From contig CAMBMU010000018.1 of NCBI GenBank assembly GCA_945868725.1, positions 1 to 39,046 on the forward strand: a stretch of 39,046 nucleotides of DNA, given 5' to 3'. Below the pieces are notes generated by a model, which searched no databases, was not told the origin of the DNA, and saw only the letters and a list, made by a program, of their open reading frames with translations. Each line of letters starts with the position of its first letter. Within the stretch, counting starts at the first letter, position 1. The stretch comes from Spirosoma fluviale. Its GTDB lineage: Bacteria; Bacteroidota; Bacteroidia; Cytophagales; Cyclobacteriaceae. A program made the position numbers and the translations under genes. Positions 361 through 37,205 of the stretch are shown here, in pieces.

Positions 361-3300
361 ATGTACCGGGGAGAACTTCTATTTTTTCTCCTGGCCGTGG
401 GAATTTTTTCGATTGATTTTTTTAAGGTTAGGACAGGTTTATTTTTTGATAGCAGCACCCTTCCTCCAAAAATTACGCAATGGGAACTCGATTCTTGCAC
501 CAGGACCATTTCCGTTCAGGCAGTTACAGGAGGTATTCCTCCCTATGATTTCTATGTCTTCAAACAAGACCCTCTTGACCTGAGCAACTGGCAGGTATAC
601 CGCTTGATTAAGGAGCAGTTGCCCCAAATCTCAAGTTTGCCCCCAGGCACTTACCGGCTCAAGGCAGTGAATGAGGGGGTAACTTCTCCTTCATTTTTCA
701 CCAACATTCTGGAAGTAAATTTTCCTACAGACCCTGAAATCGAGGTCAAGGGAACTACTTCCCTATGTTCGGGATCGATCTCCGATATCGTGCTGCACCT
801 CGCCGATTCGGAGGTTTCCTTGCCTATTCGTTGGACTGCCCGAGTACTGCTAGCCCCCGAAGATGGGGAATTGCTGGGCTACACCAGTAATCCACTAACC
901 CCGCTACTCGAGATTACGGATACCCTGATCAATACAGGAAAGACCCTTGCCAAGGTCTCCTACCAGCTCCAAGCCCTGATCAACGGCTGCCTGCTCCCTG
1001 CTCGTAGGGTAGATGTGCAGGTAAATCCAATTCCAAGAATTGAGGCTACAGTTTCCGAGAGTCTGCTTTGTTCAGGTACTCCCTTTTCCATCTCTATTCT
1101 TCCCAAAAGTTGGGGGGCTAGCCCCATGCAGTTGCGCTGGTCGGCGACACTGCTTTCTGGGCAAGTCATTGGATTAGAACAAGACAATCCATCTCCACTA
1201 GCTCTAATTTCCTCCATCAACCAGACCCTTGTCAATCGAGGAACTGGTCCTGCTCACATTCGCTACACCTTTTATCCTTCCTTCCAAGGCTGTGATGGGG
1301 TTGCTGAAATCGTAGAGGTTGTGCTGCTGCCCGAACCACAAGTTACCCAGCAAGCAGACTTAATCAGTTGCGCAGGAGAATGGGTTTCGGTTCCTGAATT
1401 TAATTCCAACCTTCCTAGCGACTCCCTTGCCTATTCCTGGGAGGTTTTCGATCCTTCCCTTGGTCTCAGCAGCGGTAGGGGGCATCAAATTCCTGCATTT
1501 CAGGCAATCAACAGCAGCATCAGTTTGAAGCGAGTGCTGATTACGGTTACCCCAATACTATACAGCCAAGGCATCTCCTGTACGGGATCGTCTTTTTCAT
1601 TTTCCATCATCGTTAGGCCTCCTTTTGTTCTAAAGGAAGAGTTGTCCAACTATTCAGGCTTTGGCGTATCCTGCGCAGGAGCTGCAGATGGAAAAATCAA
1701 ACTCTACCTCAGTGGAGGGATTTTGCCAGGTGAGGAGCCTAGCTATACCTATTCCTGGACAGGGCCGGAAGGGTTTGTCTCCTCAGCAGCCAACTTGGAA
1801 GGCCTTCAGGCAGGATTGTATCGCCTGCAGGTTTCTACTGGAATGGGCAATTGTCTTATGGAAAAAAGTATGCTGCTCACTCAGCCCGAGAGGCTCCAAA
1901 TCTCCCAATCGCAGGTTACTAGTTTATGCTTCCAAGGGAATGCGGGAAGCATCTCGATCAGGGTATCGGGAGGCAAAGCACCCTATAGCTATGCTTGGAC
2001 TGGGCCGAACGGCTTTATGGCTACTACTGAGGATCTGCAGAATCTAGCTTCAGGCACCTTCCAAGTAACGGTCACAGATGCGATCGGCTGTACGATTACT
2101 GGAACATCCCAAATGATCTCTGAACCCTCTGCCCTCTTACTTACACAAACAAGGGTGGATAATGTCTGCTTCCAAGGAAGAACAGGAAGCATTACGGTAA
2201 CGGCCTCTGGAGGGACGGCACCTTACAGTTATTCCTGGACAGGACCAAATAACTTTAACTCCACGGTAGCCAACCCACAGAACCTGGTATCTGGCAGCTA
2301 CCAAGTGAGGGTGACAGATGCCAACGGCTGTACGATAACTGGAGCACCCCAAACGATATCCGAACCCGCAGCGCTTGCCTTGACTCAAATTAAGGTGGAT
2401 AATATTTGTTTCCAGGGGGCTAAAGGTAGCATATCCATTACCACTTCGGGAGGCACAGCTCCCTACAGTTATGCTTGGACTGGTCCGAATGAATTTGTAG
2501 CTACCACAGAGGATCTGCAGAATCTAGCTTCCGGTACCTTCCAAGTAACGGTCACAGATGCGAACGGCTGTACGATTACTGGAGCACCCCAAACAATTAC
2601 CGAGCCTAGCCCCCTACTTCTCAATGCCCTGATCCAATCCGAAACCTGTGCGGATTCCAAGGATGGACGCATCGAAGTGACGCCTACCGGAGGATTGCCA
2701 CCCTACCAAATTCGATGGGAGCATGGACTGACGGGTGCGGTAGCAACAGGACTTGGCCCAGGAACTTACCGAGTTACCCTGACCGATCAAGGCGGATGCA
2801 TGCAATCAGCGGAGTACCTATTGCTCCCCATTCCCTTACTTCGCCTGGAAGGGACAGTTACCTATCAAGCCAGCTCCCTTCAAATTTCAGCACTCCTGCA
2901 ATCCGATGCACAAGGCGGTACACCACCCTATACCTACCGCTGGAATACAGGGCAAACTACCCCTTCGCTCACCGTAGCGGAGAGCGGAACCTTTACCCTT
3001 CAACTTAAGGATTCAAAGGGCTGTATTCAAGAAAAGGAATTTGCAGTTGCTCTCCCGCTTCCCTTATCCATAGCCGTTGCGGTGGCGACGGTGCCGCTTT
3101 GCGAGGAGCAAGGCCAAGAAACAACGCTCCAACTCAGCATCAGCCATGGCTTGCCTCCCTACCAAATCACCTGGACCATGGGATCGGTTACTGCCACAGG
3201 GATACAATTCATTACTCGGGAATCGGGCCTGGTAGAAGTGGAAGTGCGGGATGCACTTGGCCTTATCCAAAAACGAGCGATTGCCATCCCTCCACGACAA

Positions 3301-3837
3301 ACGGGATCCCTGGATTTTGCCCATTCGTTTGAAAGTCAGCCGCAATTCCAATCGGATCTGGTGGGCTTCAAAGGGGTATTTCGCCCGATTGCCACCTGGC
3401 CCCATCAAGTGATCTCCTGGGATTTTGGAGACGGCACAAGCAGTGCAGAAGGCAGCCCAACCCATACCTACATTCTCAAAGGAAGGTATACCGTGACCCT
3501 GACGGTATTGGATGCCGCGGGTTGCCTTATCAAGGCCAGCAAAGAAGTACAAATCCTTGACTATTATCTAGAAATCCCAAATGTCTTTACCCCCAACGGC
3601 GATCTTCTCAACGACACCTTCTTCCCCAAGTTTCGGTTCATTACCAACCTGAAGCTGCAAGTGATGAACAAATGGGGGGAACTGATCTACCGCTCCCAAG
3701 GTCAGGAAGGTTCCGGCTGGGACGGAACCGTCGCGGGTCAAAAAGCCCCCGAAGGAGTCTATGTGTACAAGATCAGCTACCAGGTTCCGGATGGACGCTT
3801 CTTTACTTCTTCTTCCACCTTTCTATTGGCCCGATGA
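361..3837 (+). CDS. T9SS type-B cargo protein with SprB-like repeats, PKD domain and gliding-motility C-terminal domain
   Basis: A 1158-residue surface or secreted protein, probably an adhesin, exported by the type IX secretion system. The N-terminus is hydrophobic (about residues 6-21) but lacks the usual basic start and a clear cleavage site. Residues about 430-900 hold SprB-like repeats, each with a CFQG-type start, a GGxxPYSYxWTGP core and a VTVTDxxGC end; three of them have a period of exactly 240 bp (80 residues). A PKD domain (WDFGDGTSS, HTY) follows at about 1000-1065. The end, from VFTPNGDLLNDTF at residue 1075, is the gliding-motility-associated C-terminal domain with KWGELIYRS, GWDGT and PEGVYVY, which is the type-B sorting signal. 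The next gene, PorP/SprF, overlaps by 4 bases, the normal partner arrangement for such cargo. Repeat A1 abuts the start. The ligand is unknown. Confidence 0.92.
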   Translation: MYRGELLFFLLAVGIFSIDFFKVRTGLFFDSSTLPPKITQWELDSCTRTISVQAVTGGIPPYDFYVFKQDPLDLSNWQVYRLIKEQLPQISSLPPGTYRLKAVNEGVTSPSFFTNILEVNFPTDPEIEVKGTTSLCSGSISDIVLHLADSEVSLPIRWTARVLLAPEDGELLGYTSNPLTPLLEITDTLINTGKTLAKVSYQLQALINGCLLPARRVDVQVNPIPRIEATVSESLLCSGTPFSISILPKSWGASPMQLRWSATLLSGQVIGLEQDNPSPLALISSINQTLVNRGTGPAHIRYTFYPSFQGCDGVAEIVEVVLLPEPQVTQQADLISCAGEWVSVPEFNSNLPSDSLAYSWEVFDPSLGLSSGRGHQIPAFQAINSSISLKRVLITVTPILYSQGISCTGSSFSFSIIVRPPFVLKEELSNYSGFGVSCAGAADGKIKLYLSGGILPGEEPSYTYSWTGPEGFVSSAANLEGLQAGLYRLQVSTGMGNCLMEKSMLLTQPERLQISQSQVTSLCFQGNAGSISIRVSGGKAPYSYAWTGPNGFMATTEDLQNLASGTFQVTVTDAIGCTITGTSQMISEPSALLLTQTRVDNVCFQGRTGSITVTASGGTAPYSYSWTGPNNFNSTVANPQNLVSGSYQVRVTDANGCTITGAPQTISEPAALALTQIKVDNICFQGAKGSISITTSGGTAPYSYAWTGPNEFVATTEDLQNLASGTFQVTVTDANGCTITGAPQTITEPSPLLLNALIQSETCADSKDGRIEVTPTGGLPPYQIRWEHGLTGAVATGLGPGTYRVTLTDQGGCMQSAEYLLLPIPLLRLEGTVTYQASSLQISALLQSDAQGGTPPYTYRWNTGQTTPSLTVAESGTFTLQLKDSKGCIQEKEFAVALPLPLSIAVAVATVPLCEEQGQETTLQLSISHGLPPYQITWTMGSVTATGIQFITRESGLVEVEVRDALGLIQKRAIAIPPRQTGSLDFAHSFESQPQFQSDLVGFKGVFRPIATWPHQVISWDFGDGTSSAEGSPTHTYILKGRYTVTLTVLDAAGCLIKASKEVQILDYYLEIPNVFTPNGDLLNDTFFPKFRFITNLKLQVMNKWGELIYRSQGQEGSGWDGTVAGQKAPEGVYVYKISYQVPDGRFFTSSSTFLLAR

Positions 3838-8018: not shown

Positions 8019-8164
8019 TAAAGGAGGCGTGAAGTTTAAAAGAATGTGCTGTGGTCTGTGGACGGCCTGTAGACTGTGGTCTGTCAGCTGTAGACGATTA
8101 TCCGCCAATGTCAAACCTTGTTTAGGGCCACTTGGCTAAATTGCGGATAATCCTTTTATTTTTG
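8019..8164 (+). repeat. Family A interspersed repeat, copy A2
   Basis: The head is diverged (GGAGGCGTGAAGTTTAAA from 8023). The box at about 8048-8095 is made of CTGTGG, GTGGAC and TAGAC words. The arms are GATTATCCGC (8096-8105) and GCGGATAATC (8143-8152), with a 37-base spacer. TATTTTTG (8157-8164), a -7-like octamer, follows the right arm. Between the guaB terminator and this copy, GATTATCTGC at 7984 looks like a decayed arm of another copy. Confidence 0.8.
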
Positions 8165-8189
8165 TTTGATTTTACCGCTTTTCAACACT

Positions 8190-8342
8190 AACCAGAGAAA
8201 AAAAGGCTTGAGGTTCAATTAGGTGAGCTGTGGACCGTTGACAGCCTGTGGGCCGTGGTCCATGGTCTGTCAACGATTATCCGCAGTTTTTAATAGGCGA
8301 GCTGAGCTACTGGCATGATTGCGGATAATCTATTTATTTTTG
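8190..8342 (+). repeat. Family A interspersed repeat, copy A3
   Basis: A complete copy: ACCAGAGAAAAAAAGG head, TTGAGGTTCAA, and a box at about 8229-8274 with flanks GTTGACAG and CTGTCAAC that can pair with each other. The arms are GATTATCCGC (8275-8284) and GCGGATAATC (8321-8330) around a 36-base spacer. It lies directly in tandem with A2 and ends 43 bases before the pyrD ATG. Confidence 0.85.
8335..8342 (+). promoter_or_regulatory. Possible pyrD -7 element contributed by repeat A3
   Basis: TATTTTTG fits TAnnTTTG. The only upstream TTG (8319-8321) overlaps the right arm and sits at a short spacing of 13 bases, so promoter activity is uncertain. Confidence 0.35.
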
Positions 8343-13759: not shown

Positions 13760-14476
13760 ATGACAAAGCTAAGTGTAAATATCAATAAGATTGCCACCAT
13801 CCGGAATGCCAGAGGAGCCAATAATCCCAATGTAGTGAAAGTGGCGCTGGATTGTGAACGTTTTGGCGCAGAGGGAATCACCGTGCATCCTCGCCCCGAT
13901 GAGCGGCACATTCGCTACCAGGATGTGTTGGACTTGTCGCAAGTGGTACGCACTGAATTCAATATCGAGGGTTATCCCGATGCACGATTTATGGAACTTA
14001 TCCGAACCGTGAAGCCCGCTCAGGCCACGCTGGTCCCTGATCCACCGACGGCCATTACTTCCAATACCGGTTGGGATACCATTCGGCATCAATCCATGCT
14101 GAAGGATATAGTCGCTGAACTCAAGGAGATGGGCACGCGTGTATCCATCTTTATCAATCCTGAAGCTAGGTTCTTTGAACCTGCCAAGCTTACAGGTACC
14201 GATCGGGTAGAGCTGTATACCGAGCCTTATGCGTTGGGCTATCCTGTGGATCGTGCCAAAGCCGTGCAAGCCTATGTGGAGGTAGCCAAGTTGGCCACTG
14301 AACTCGGATTGGGCATCAATGCTGGACATGACTTGGACCTGCATAATTTGGCCTACTTCAAGCAGCAAATCCCTCAGCTTTTGGAGGTGTCTATCGGGCA
14401 CGCATTGATTTGTGACGCGCTTTACTACGGCTTGGAGAATACCATTCAACTGTACCGTCGCCAATTGGAGCTGTAA
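13760..14476 (+). CDS. pdxJ: Pyridoxine 5'-phosphate synthase
   Basis: Condenses 1-deoxyxylulose 5-phosphate with 3-amino-2-oxopropyl phosphate to form pyridoxine 5'-phosphate, the last ring-forming step of the DXP-dependent vitamin B6 pathway. The 238-residue length matches the family. Motifs seen: [16 protein letters not shown] (phosphate-binding N-terminus), [11 protein letters not shown] (active-site His and Arg), [22 protein letters not shown] and [11 protein letters not shown]. The ATG at 13760 lies only 62 bases from the divergent YqeY start, so the two share a short regulatory region. Family B repeats start 9 bases after the stop. Confidence 0.97.
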
Positions 14477-14484
14477 TTTTTTTT

Positions 14485-14730
14485 GTCAACGGTCCACAGT
14501 CAACGGTCCACAGTAAATTGTGCTTTGAATATAAAAAACGTATTAAAGAATTGATTCTAACATCCGTTTCAAAACGAATTGGCTGTCGACAGTGGACCGT
14601 CAACGGTTGACCAAATGACTACAGTAAATCGTGCTTTGAATATAAAAAACGTATTAAAGAATTGATTCTAACATCCGTTTCAAAACTAATTAGCTGTCGA
14701 CAGTGGACTGTCAGCAGTTGGCCATAAAAT
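14485..14730 (+). repeat. Family B repeats: two near-identical tandem copies, period 111 bp
   Basis: GTCAACGGTCCACAGT (14485-14500) begins a complementary left end. Copy 1 runs from 14510, copy 2 from 14621, each with the core TGCTTTGAATATAAAAAACG and the right end GGCTGTCGACAGTGGAC. Over the first 101 aligned bases I count seven differences: six transitions and one transversion. Four of them fall in the last 16 bases (the box). The left and right boxes can pair into a long imperfect hairpin. No coding potential is seen. Confidence 0.9.
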
Positions 14731-14731
14731 A

Positions 14732-15197
14732 TCAACAGTCCACTTTTTATAATTAAATTCAATCTTATTCATTTTTTAACATTTTTACACCTAGGATATG
14801 GCATTCAAATTTGAAGAATTAAGAGTATGGGAAATGGCAATCAGCCTTTCGGCTGAAGTAAATGTTTTGATAAAAACTTTCCCTTTGGAGGAGCGATTTG
14901 TGCTTAGTTCACAATTTCAAAGGGCGGCGGATTCTGTAGCATTAAATATTGCAGAAGGTTCTACTGGTCAGTCAACTGCTGAATTCAAAAAATTTCTAGG
15001 ATATTCAATCCGATCTGGAATCGAAGTTATCAGTTGTTTGTACCTGGGAAAGAAAAGAGGAATAATCTACGAGGAAGATTTTTCAAAACTTTATACCACT
15101 TATGAATCTTTAATTATCAAAATTCAGGCGCTTAAAAACTCTTTTTGACTTGTGGTTTGATTCCTCAACGAATCTTCTGTCTACCATGGACTGTTAG
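14732..15197 (+). mobile_element. Putative full-length family B element carrying a four-helix-bundle gene
   Basis: The left end TCAACAGTCCA (14732-14742) is a family B left box without the usual core behind it. The right part (GATTC at about 15159, ACGAATCTTCTGTC and TGGACTGTT, 15187-15195) is a family B right end without a left half. AACAGTCCA and TGGACTGTT are perfect 9-base inverted repeats. Between them sits the S23-type gene at 14798-15148. The simplest reading is one longer element of about 466 bp with the same ends as the short copies on both sides. This delimitation is my inference. Confidence 0.5.
14798..15148 (+). CDS. Four-helix-bundle protein (S23/IVP family)
   Basis: A 116-residue all-helical protein of the S23 ribosomal/intervening-sequence protein family. 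Family features seen: FKFEELRVWEMAISLSAEV at the start, FPLEERFVLSSQFQRAADSVALNIAEG (the hallmark IAEG after a helix), and SIRSGIEVISCLYLGKKRG in the third helix. Relatives are encoded inside intervening sequences of 23S rRNA genes and, as Avd, in diversity-generating retroelements; the basic bundle binds nucleic acid there. No reverse transcriptase or rRNA is near this copy. Instead it lies between the two ends of a family B repeat, with further copies on both sides. Function here is unknown. It is A/T-richer than its neighbours, consistent with acquired DNA. Confidence 0.9.
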   Translation: MAFKFEELRVWEMAISLSAEVNVLIKTFPLEERFVLSSQFQRAADSVALNIAEGSTGQSTAEFKKFLGYSIRSGIEVISCLYLGKKRGIIYEEDFSKLYTTYESLIIKIQALKNSF

Positions 15198-15208
15198 CTG
15201 TTCAAAAT

Positions 15209-15463
15209 GTCAACGGTTAACGGTCGACGGACCACAGTCAATTGTATTTCAGCAAGGAATGAAGTATTAAAATTTGGATTCCAAACTCCATTCCTATACG
15301 AACTGGCTGTCGACAGTGGACTATGGACCGTTGACCAAAAAATGTCAACAGACCACGGACCACAGTCAATTGTAATTAACTTATGAATAAAGTAGTATTA
15401 TTTCGATTCTAAATTTGGTACCACCACGAATCTGCTGTCGTCTGTCGACTGTGGACCGTTGAC
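15209..15463 (+). repeat. Family B repeats, two tandem diverged copies
   Basis: Copy 4 spans 15209-15335 (GTCAACGGTTAACGG to GGACCGTTGAC) and copy 5 spans 15344-15463 (GTCAACAGACCACGG to CTGTGGACCGTTGAC). Both keep a GATTC...ACGAA.CTG.CTGTCG right core. The cores differ a lot from each other and from the copies at 14.5 kb, yet the ends still pair. Copy 5 ends 7 bases before the start codon of the esterase gene. Confidence 0.85.
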
Positions 15464-15470
15464 AAAATGT

Positions 15471-16380: not shown

Positions 16381-17346
16381 ATGAACAGTTCCATTGAAAT
16401 TTATAGATCCGAAGGAGAAACTCAAATCGAGGTTCGATTTGAAAATGAGACCGTTTGGCTCAATCGTTCTCAAATTGCAATACTATTTGGTAGGGATATT
16501 AAGACTATCGGAAAACATCTGACTACTATTTTTTCCGAAGGTGAGTTAGTTAGGTTGGCAACTGTCGCAAATTTTGCGACAGTTCAAAATGAAGGTTTAA
16601 GAGAGGTGGAACGTCAAATAGAATTCTATAATCTCGACGTGATTATTTCTCTTGGCTACCGTGTAAAGTCTAAAGAAGGAACTCATTTCAGACAATGGGC
16701 TACCCAACGATTGAAAGACTACTTGATTAAAGGCTATGCAGTAAATCAGGAAAGGCTTTCGCAGCTTCAACAGTCTTTCCAATTGATTCGAGAAGCGGCT
16801 CTTTCAGATGATTTTTCAAAAGCTCAGGTCAAGGAAATCATTGATGTTTTGGCCGACTATGCGCTAGGATTGGATATTCTGGATGGGTATGACAAACAAA
16901 ATCTTGAGATGGGAATGGTCCAACCCAACTCTATTTTTCAAATTTCTTATCAAGAAGCCAAGGTGGCTATCGAAGAACTCCGCATTAAGTTTGGAGGCTC
17001 CCTGCTTTTTGGGAATGAAAAAGATGACTCATTCAAAAGTTCGATTTCCACAATCAATCAAACGTTTGATAGTAAGGAACTTTATCCCAGCATCGAGGAA
17101 AAGGCAGCTCATTTACTTTATTTCGTGGTGAAGAACCATTCGTTTACCGATGGAAACAAGCGAATTGCTGCTTGGCTATTTGTATGGTACTTGGCCAAAA
17201 ACAACTACCTGCTCAACTCGAAAGGGATTCCAAAAGTGGCCAACAACGCGCTGGCAGCAATTACCCTCATGGTAGCGTTGAGCAAGCCCGAGGAAAAGGA
17301 CCTGATGATTTTGGTGATTGTGAATTCGATCAATAAGGCCAATTGA
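16381..17346 (+). CDS. RhuM-Fic fusion protein (virulence RhuM/Fic/DOC family)
   Basis: A 321-residue two-domain protein. Residues 1-about 165 are a RhuM domain: VWLNRSQIAILFGRDIKTIGKH looks like a winged-helix/DNA-binding element, and FYNLDVIISLGYRV and FRQWATQRLKDYLIKGYAVN are the family signature. The C-terminal part is a Fic/DOC domain with HSFTDGNKR at residues 253-261, close to the canonical HPFx(D/E)GNxR (Pro replaced by Ser), so the catalytic His, acidic and Arg residues are all kept. Fic enzymes transfer AMP or other nucleotide parts to proteins; Doc phosphorylates EF-Tu. No separate antitoxin is visible beside it. It stands alone between a terminator and a family B repeat, in an A/T-rich accessory stretch. 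Target unknown. Confidence 0.9.
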   Translation: MNSSIEIYRSEGETQIEVRFENETVWLNRSQIAILFGRDIKTIGKHLTTIFSEGELVRLATVANFATVQNEGLREVERQIEFYNLDVIISLGYRVKSKEGTHFRQWATQRLKDYLIKGYAVNQERLSQLQQSFQLIREAALSDDFSKAQVKEIIDVLADYALGLDILDGYDKQNLEMGMVQPNSIFQISYQEAKVAIEELRIKFGGSLLFGNEKDDSFKSSISTINQTFDSKELYPSIEEKAAHLLYFVVKNHSFTDGNKRIAAWLFVWYLAKNNYLLNSKGIPKVANNALAAITLMVALSKPEEKDLMILVIVNSINKAN

Positions 17347-20701: not shown

Positions 20702-20757
20702 GATTATCCGCAATCCTACTAGTGACTCAATCCTAGTGCTAACCACTGCGGATAATC
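20702..20757 (-). repeat. Family A hairpin core, inverted copy A4
   Basis: Only the hairpin is present: GATTATCCGC (20702-20711) and GCGGATAATC (20748-20757) around a 36-base spacer. Read on the minus strand, the spacer's right half matches that of copy A6 near 37.16 kb (A4 reads AATCCTAC..GTGACTCAAT on the plus strand; A6 reads the same on the minus strand with two changes). The head and GTGGAC box are absent. It starts 6 bases after the dipeptidase stop and could also serve as its transcript end. Confidence 0.8.
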
Positions 20758-20783
20758 ATTTTCAAAATTGAAGTTACCAAACC

Positions 20784-30784: not shown

Positions 30785-30907
30785 TACCAGTGACCAAATA
30801 AAAAAAGGGCTGAAGTTCAATTAAGTGGGCTGTGGACCGTCGACTGTGAACGATTATCCGCATTGGTTAATAGGTAGGTTATGCCATAGGAAAGATTGCG
30901 GATAATC
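30785..30907 (+). repeat. Family A interspersed repeat, copy A5
   Basis: Head ACCAGTGACCAAATAAAAAAAG and CTGAAGTTCAA, a short 21-base box (TGTGGACCGTCGACTGTGAAC), then arms GATTATCCGC (30852-30861) and GCGGATAATC (30898-30907) with a 36-base spacer. It ends 5 bases before the acs stop codon, so the convergent DUF4403 and acs transcripts meet here and the hairpin may end both. Confidence 0.85.
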
Positions 30908-37058: not shown

Positions 37059-37189
37059 TTACCAGTAACGAGAGAAAATAAGGTTTGAAGTTCAAGAAGG
37101 TGGGCTGTTAACCGTGGACGGTCGTCAGTGGACGATTATCCGCAGTAATTCAATCGTATATTGAGTCACCGGTAGGATTGCGGATAATC
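37059..37189 (+). repeat. Family A interspersed repeat, copy A6
   Basis: Head ACCAGTAACGAGAGAAAATA and the palindrome TTGAAGTTCAA, a 27-base box (GTTAACCGTGGACGG and on), then arms GATTATCCGC (37134-37143) and GCGGATAATC (37180-37189) with a 36-base spacer. It ends 33 bases before the ruvB ATG. With A5 it is the clearest full-length example. Confidence 0.85.
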
Positions 37190-37205
37190 ATATTAGCTAT
37201 ATTTG
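37178..37205 (+). promoter_or_regulatory. ruvB promoter partly formed by repeat A6
   Basis: TTG (37178-37180) overlaps the right arm of A6, and TATATTTG (37198-37205), an exact TAnnTTTG, follows after 17 bases, slightly shorter than the usual 19-21. The leader to the ATG at 37223 would be about 10 bases. Confidence 0.45.

Follow-up and report, generated by a model that had tools for sequence, protein, structure and literature searches.

The S23 gene found in the window (the whole stretch of Spirosoma fluviale DNA that was analysed, 39,046 nucleotides) lies between two inverted arrays of seven-base repeats, and S23 loci with such arrays belong to about a dozen phyla, as read from the record titles. 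In this class of elements the S23 gene is bracketed, within 150 bases on each side, by tandem arrays that are inverse complements of each other, with a repeat period that is mostly 7 and is 8 or 9 in some lineages. From lineage to lineage the letters of the repeat unit vary freely, yet within a locus the two arms stay matched. Gene-less forms sharing these ends also occur, in one case at a site where the relatives keep the gene. The reading favoured here, to which about an even chance is given, is that the window locus belongs, as a gene-bearing member, to a class of widely distributed intervening elements located between co-directional protein genes, which would be the mRNA counterpart of the intervening sequences (IVS) of 23S rRNA. 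To our knowledge, no explanation covers all the seven-base repeats of bacterial genomes. The S23/IVP proteins, with structures released since 2006-2007, are described as being without known function (PMC4990558). The association joins these two old puzzles and makes both testable: it gives S23 a candidate substrate, a stem of fixed-period repeats, offers a candidate protein partner for the seven-base repeats, and points to a larger class, placed between protein genes, of which the rRNA intervening sequences would be one corner.

The S23 gene (14798-15148, forward strand, as are all the window features given below) encodes a protein of 116 amino acids. Its product matched Pfam PF05635 with E=2.6e-28 and 98.8 bits (curated cut-off 33.8) and TIGR02436 with E=8.4e-26 in a profile search, and the predicted fold is a four-helix bundle, so that profile and fold both place it in the S23/IVP family, as the preliminary description had proposed from the sequence. 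A structure model built from a 22-row alignment (pLDDT 94.9) was superimposable on the Xanthomonas structure 2gsc (TM 0.94) and on the Bacteroides structure 2rld (TM 0.83). Both of these structures contain five chains, and 2gsc is cited as a homopentamer in PMC4990558. The match with the Avd protein of the diversity-generating retroelements (4dwl), which has a five-fold four-helix-bundle fold, was looser (TM 0.79, with a sequence identity of 6%), and this likeness is one of fold. A dN/dS ratio of about 0.07, obtained in the three pairs where it was computable and printed, indicates purifying selection, and this slow evolution of the protein argues that the gene is in use. When 50,697 phage records were searched with a single query (E<=0.001), no S23 match was obtained.

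The whole intervening region extends from the pdxJ stop codon (14474-14476) to the start of a hydrolase gene (15471), that is, positions 14477-15470, and the same neighbours were found in 12 other species. Its ends are formed by arrays of GTNNAC plus one base, spaced by 7 bases and arranged as inverted pairs; tandem seven-base units in intergenic space, which define heptameric intergenic repeats, are thus present. The outermost left arm (14482-14519), directly 3' of the pdxJ stop codon, carries the heptads GTCAACG GTCCACA GTCAACG GTCCACA at 14485-14512 (starts at 14485, 14492, 14499 and 14506), and the outermost right arm (15429-15466), directly 5' of the hydrolase start codon, has heptads at 15444, 15451 and 15458. 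Both arms constitute an inverted repeat of 38 bases, with a pairing score of 26 versus a maximum of 13 in 500 shuffles, and a predicted RNA duplex of -50.6 kcal/mol. As in the 23S rRNA intervening sequences, the open reading frame is therefore surrounded by complementary ends that could form a stem. In this region, the complete short copies previously noticed on both sides of the gene were found to be four, two on each side, with a length of about 120-131 bases and limits set by their arrays. Copy 1 (14485-14611) has an array at each end and about 74 bases between them, copy 2 (14599-14724) uses the end of copy 1 as its left array, and copies 3 (15209-15339) and 4 (15344-15463) are located behind the gene; none of the four carries a gene.

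Next to the S23 gene, the exact inverse complements AACAGTCCA (14734-14742) and TGGACTGTT (15188-15196) correspond to the perfect inverted repeats already reported in the preliminary description, which considered them part of two half-ends homologous to the ends of the short copies. This proposal stands for the right side: the inner right half-end (15159-15204, GATTC...ACGAATC...CTGTC...TGGACTGTT) scored 15-19 against the right ends of the four copies, where the largest of 300 shuffles reached 11-14, and it was above all 300 shuffles for each copy. The inner left half-end (TCAACAGTCCAC, 14732-14743), 5' of the gene, is present, but it is a 12-base match with scores of 7.5-13 (largest shuffle 11-14), and alone it was not above the shuffles for any of the four copies, so the homology between the cores of the short copies and the gene flanks is demonstrated in the window for the right end only.

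Relatives at least 70% identical to the window S23 were found in 15 of the 71 other genomes of the genus searched. In 12 of the 15 loci fetched (L185-L199), each from another species, the gene lies between pdxJ and the hydrolase gene with such ends; the other three (L190, L197 and L198, with about 75-79% identity) have other neighbours and no pdxJ in the locus, and they were left out of the tally for this site. The gap between pdxJ and the hydrolase gene was 477-638 bases in 11 of the 12 loci, and the order was always stop codon, heptads, gene, heptads and start codon. In the closest relative, L185, this gap was 963 bases and contained extra short copies as in the window. The loci L193 and L196 were scored with a short or empty right flank because their S23 frame extends into the right arm, which is present in both. 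Among 30 genomes without a close S23 relative, 27 keep the pdxJ-hydrolase pair, and one of them (L220) has at this site 120 bases that are gene-less and show matching ends. The alignment of L220 with the element of L195 after removal of the gene gave 90 identical positions out of 115 and a score of 44, versus -11 (sd 4) for shuffles. The relation between gene-bearing and gene-less elements located between protein genes, which had been put forward from the window, is thus borne out by an internally deleted form at the same site. L241 is likely a second gene-less form (score of 10 against the gene-removed element, versus -15 for shuffles, sd 4). In L234 the left array is retained and the rest is missing; a GACAACA repeat is found at the break when compared to L199, and the difference between them looks like a deletion at this repeat. 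Gaps of 25-27 bases were found in L228, L231 and L242, and the remaining 21 genomes had other sequence at the site, which by eye often contains another heptad, e.g. CGTAAAT. A close pair of filled and empty sites with a readable junction was not found, and neither an insertion event nor a target duplication was seen, which counts against the favoured reading.

These comparisons suggest that the window S23 has mostly been inherited in place under purifying selection, and they bear on another reading, considered unlikely, in which S23 is a resident regulator that, by binding to its own repeats at the mRNA or DNA level, tunes or separates the expression of neighbouring genes of an operon, as a kept cassette and not a selfish insert. 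The occupation of the same site in 13 species (including the window), the low dN/dS and the recurrent homes of S23 in metabolic and cas operons agree with a kept cassette; however, among the 27 further genomes with the pdxJ-hydrolase pair, three have the gap of 25-27 bases and the rest are gene-less or carry other sequence. At the junction of L197, the loci L200 and L201, from other species, hold S23 genes of different subfamilies (59% and 49% identity to L197), and therefore some junctions may be re-used.

A survey of 153 pooled S23 loci was carried out, comprising 33 loci from the host genus, 28 from the phylum, 12 from cyanobacterial plasmids (12 of the 34 plasmid records with a match) and 80 from a broad set with one genome per species (the best 80 of 588 relatives). 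L043 was removed before the counts since it occupies the same place as L002; flanks shorter than 60 bases were not scored, and a dominant period of 14 was scored as 7 in the same-period, inversion and tree tests. In the 150-base upstream flanks of the genus loci, the mean autocorrelation at lags 7, 14, 21 and 28 was 0.38, 0.37, 0.35 and 0.31, versus 0.25-0.30 at other lags (0.32 at lag 1); no rise at lag 7 was observed in these loci within the S23 gene or 750-900 bases away. A dominant significant period of 7 or 14 was found in 45/79 upstream and 48/80 downstream flanks of the broad set, compared to 19/193 and 32/243 flanks of other open reading frames of the same loci, and to 15/98 control flanks with intergenic room. 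The control rate is above zero perhaps because gene-less arrays are also present near other genes. The same significant period was found on both sides in 89 of the 153 loci (period 7 in 77, period 8 in 9 and period 9 in 3), and 9 of the 80 broad loci lacked a significant period on either side. The phyla represented include Bacteroidota, Pseudomonadota, Bacillota, Chloroflexota, Acidobacteriota, Planctomycetota, Verrucomicrobiota, candidate phyla and Cyanobacteriota, and two archaeal loci (L135 and L154) have an array on one side only. The preliminary description had named, as the finding that would count against it, that no S23 genes lie between such ends in other genomes; since inverted arrays bracket S23 genes in many phyla, this did not occur.

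The two arms of a locus were in general found to be inverted copies of one unit. At period 7, the upstream unit and the reverse-complemented downstream unit differed by a mean best-rotation distance of 1.29 within loci versus 3.27 across loci (n=77, 0/2000 permutations; 0/5000 in a diverse subset of 44 loci), and at period 8 by 1.00 versus 3.46 (n=9, 0/2000 permutations). There were 70 different unit sequences among the 89 same-period loci, and 10 of these loci were nearer to the direct than to the inverted orientation. A flank pairing score of at least 16 was reached by 41 of 71 S23 loci, the other 30 remaining below it, versus 2 of 178 control genes taken from these loci and 1 of 49 controls with intergenic room on both sides. 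The median duplex energy was -57.3 for own flanks and -42.5 for flanks taken from different loci (n=75). It is very improbable that the arrays are independent simple repeats, such as quadruplex formers, to which S23 is adjacent by chance or by a shared preference for intergenic space. The heptamers of Xanthomonas and Nostoc are indeed described as quadruplex formers (PMC4692102), but GTCAACG, AGTACCA and AGTATCA lack G-runs and a single unit recurs in the two arms of a locus; chance adjacency and a purely quadruplex nature of the repeats were discarded on the inversion test and on the pairing of the flanks compared to the controls.

In clusters of S23 proteins at about 50% identity (average linkage, 29 clusters, 164 loci), each arm paired better with its own partner than with the arms of relatives (17.35 versus 12.86, 0/5000), which indicates that the two arms were kept matching while their letters changed. 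Single-linkage clusters at 55% were also tried, and average linkage was used instead since nearly everything merged. No advantage of the own partner was found within clusters at about 65% identity (979/5000), presumably because the unit has been unchanged so far. When single orthologue groups were considered, arm coevolution was found in the fad-type group only (15/2000), with no own-partner advantage at the pdxJ (1466/2000) and lpd (669/2000) sites taken alone. The whole-element RNA fold of L186 was no better than shuffles (z -0.83), though the arms pair in this fold.

The repeat period follows the S23 protein. In a tree of 152 S23 proteins, which has few columns and many unresolved forks (L145, with 300 amino acids, was left out), a clade of eight members, seven from the phylum set and one Balneolaceae, with 98% SH-aLRT, showed period 8 throughout, four of these members being labelled from one arm only. 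There were 12 changes of period on the tree versus a mean of 20.1 and a minimum of 17 in 200 shuffles, and with both-arm labels only there were 8 changes versus a mean of 11.7 and a minimum of 9 in 200 shuffles. This suggests that the S23 protein could set the repeat length.

Concerning the setting, both neighbours were co-directional with S23 in 52 of 68 broad loci versus 61 of 112 control triples of these loci (Fisher p 0.004), the 12 of the 80 broad loci that do not have both neighbours being left out. The median distance from the end of the upstream arm to the S23 start was 26 bases, and that from the S23 stop to the beginning of the downstream arm was 8 bases. The upstream arm, the more purine-rich one in 80/90 loci, was considered as a sign of action at the RNA level, an argument that was dropped because the arrangement reads alike from both strands. 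In 20 broad loci picked by hand, most of them close to contig ends, no rRNA was found near S23. S23 genes were also found on conjugative and other plasmids and, on cyanobacterial plasmids, inside cas operons (L099, L103 and L104). In L104 the AAAAGCT/AAAAGCC arrays are direct and not inverted. The presence of 18 23S_rRNA_IVP genes in cas loci has been reported (PMC3936711), with S23 placed between cas genes as in these three loci; that work presents IVP as a function associated with CRISPR-Cas, while the cas operons are here one home among many.

The closest known system is the IVS of Coxiella 23S rRNA, in which a 28-bp stem is cut by RNase III and tandem heptamers lie just 5' of the S23 gene, although its S23 protein is thought by the authors not to be made (PMC4990558). 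Genes for IVP are also described in inserts of 16S rRNA (PMC11270868). Elements of the window type share with the rRNA IVS an S23 reading frame inside inverted ends able to pair (PMC4990558), but they are placed between protein genes, in the window between pdxJ and the hydrolase gene instead of within 23S rRNA, they have many gene-less copies, and their cutting by RNase III is a prediction from the IVS. By analogy with the rRNA case, the two arrays would pair in the operon transcript to form a stem some 30 bp long, and RNase III would cut this stem, releasing the S23 message and separating the flanking messages, a cut that would be harmless between genes. The S23 pentamer, similar to the Avd barrel, might then hold the stem repeat unit by repeat unit, as its pentameric state, its Avd-like fold and the clade-bound period suggest, and this unit-wise grip would explain why the period is kept and the letters are free. 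The gene-less short copies would derive from such elements and depend on a resident S23 for their spread or persistence.

The inverted ends and the many gene-less copies could also correspond to a DNA-level mobile element of MITE type, with the arrays as terminal repeats, the enzyme encoded elsewhere, S23 as a DNA-binding accessory protein or cargo and the gene-less copies as ordinary MITEs. The other sites of the window-type S23 in L190, L197 and L198, as well as its presence on plasmids, agree with such mobility. Terminal inverted repeats, as those of MITEs and transposons, are present, but as arrays with a fixed period and free sequence and not as a conserved terminal sequence; the window element contains no transposase, S23 being its sole gene, and its neighbours, as in most loci, are co-directional. 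Together with an S23 gene inherited in place under strong purifying selection, these features make the MITE-type explanation improbable. The element is not of the REP/RAYT type either, since a RAYT transposase flanked by palindromes is absent from it.

The intervening-element reading includes the idea of a resident helper for the gene-less copies, and the distribution of arrays is relevant to it. The median number of GTNNAC triple arrays was 11 in 16 genomes carrying a window-type S23 and 2 in 56 other genomes (p 0.007), a comparison that ignores kinship. Some array-rich genomes, several of them incomplete, are without a window-type S23 (among them G005 with 43 arrays and G012 with 29); gene-less arrays are thus common also without a close S23, and therefore the resident-helper idea draws on a moderate difference. 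The host genome matches the pattern (GTNNACN)x3 at 88 places versus 1 for the reversed pattern, and the GTNNAC arrays in the parts fetched are often paired, 73-93 bases apart. This genome contains four S23 genes. L002 and L003 are bounded by inverted AGTATCA and AGTACCA runs, and the fourth gene, L004, a distant S23-like one (28% identity to the window protein), departs from the inverted-array pattern and has on its sides CCCGCAAGCGGG-type palindromes of 11-base period.

The seven-base repeats described in other bacteria were compared with the S23-flanking arrays. Rehm et al. described the heptameric repeats of Xanthomonas and Nostoc, with 70 and 75 convergent pairs of GGGAATC arrays in two Xanthomonas strains, placed behind stop codons on the coding strand and before start codons on the other strand; a search of the available text gave no mention of S23 (PMC4692102). 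These heptamers share with the S23-flanking arrays the seven-base unit and the intergenic location (PMC4692102) but they are G-rich, whereas most S23-flanking units are without G-runs. In Luteimonas salinisoli (L105), an S23 gene 73% identical to a Xanthomonas query has about one and a half GGGAATC units 5' and several complements 3', with genes for the biotin carboxyl carrier and biotin carboxylase as neighbours, by eye. The GGGAATC double pattern was found 101/89 times on the two strands of this genome and 52/45 times in a second Luteimonas, and it was absent from eight other S23-bearing genomes; at least 18 convergent and at least 1 divergent neighbouring pairs were counted among the arrays listed. 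In the Nostoc tRNA-Leu intron, the P6b stem contains complementary seven-base repeats described as being of unknown origin (PMC4476775), and it resembles the S23 arms, by description only, as an RNA stem of complementary heptads in which two unrelated motifs have been swapped over time, with no S23 gene involved in the text available (PMC4476775). The TAACTGA repeats of Beggiatoaceae were set aside, as they are presented as direct repeats and S23 is not mentioned in the text available (PMC4679880). Full-text searches of the open-licence literature listed papers on the single components, and by title or abstract opening none connected S23 genes with repeats located between protein genes.

A broader proposal, for which we hold out a limited chance, is that S23 proteins define a class of operon-intervening elements present throughout the bacteria. 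Each protein would read the length of the repeat and not its letters, each clade with its own period (7, 8 or 9), and the arms would be rewritten together by copying, perhaps RNA-templated as the Avd fold might hint; the heptamers of Xanthomonas and Nostoc and the Nostoc tRNA-Leu stems would then be gene-less members.

Some other features were observed. A second family of repeats in the window consists of GATTATCCGCA...TGCGGATAATC palindromes of about 60 bases, located at about 295-345, 8096-8330 (two copies), 20702-20760, 30849-30906 and 37131-37190; the copies inspected have GTNNAC heptads along one side. In two of the surveyed loci (L042 and L057) the S23 gene has one internal stop codon at a site where the relatives are open, a sign of local decay. 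Adjoining the S23 region, positions 16381-17346 of the window encode a protein that has a Fic domain and an N-terminal part of RhuM type, and positions 361-3837 contain an open frame of 1158 amino acids with internal tandem repeats of 240 bases.
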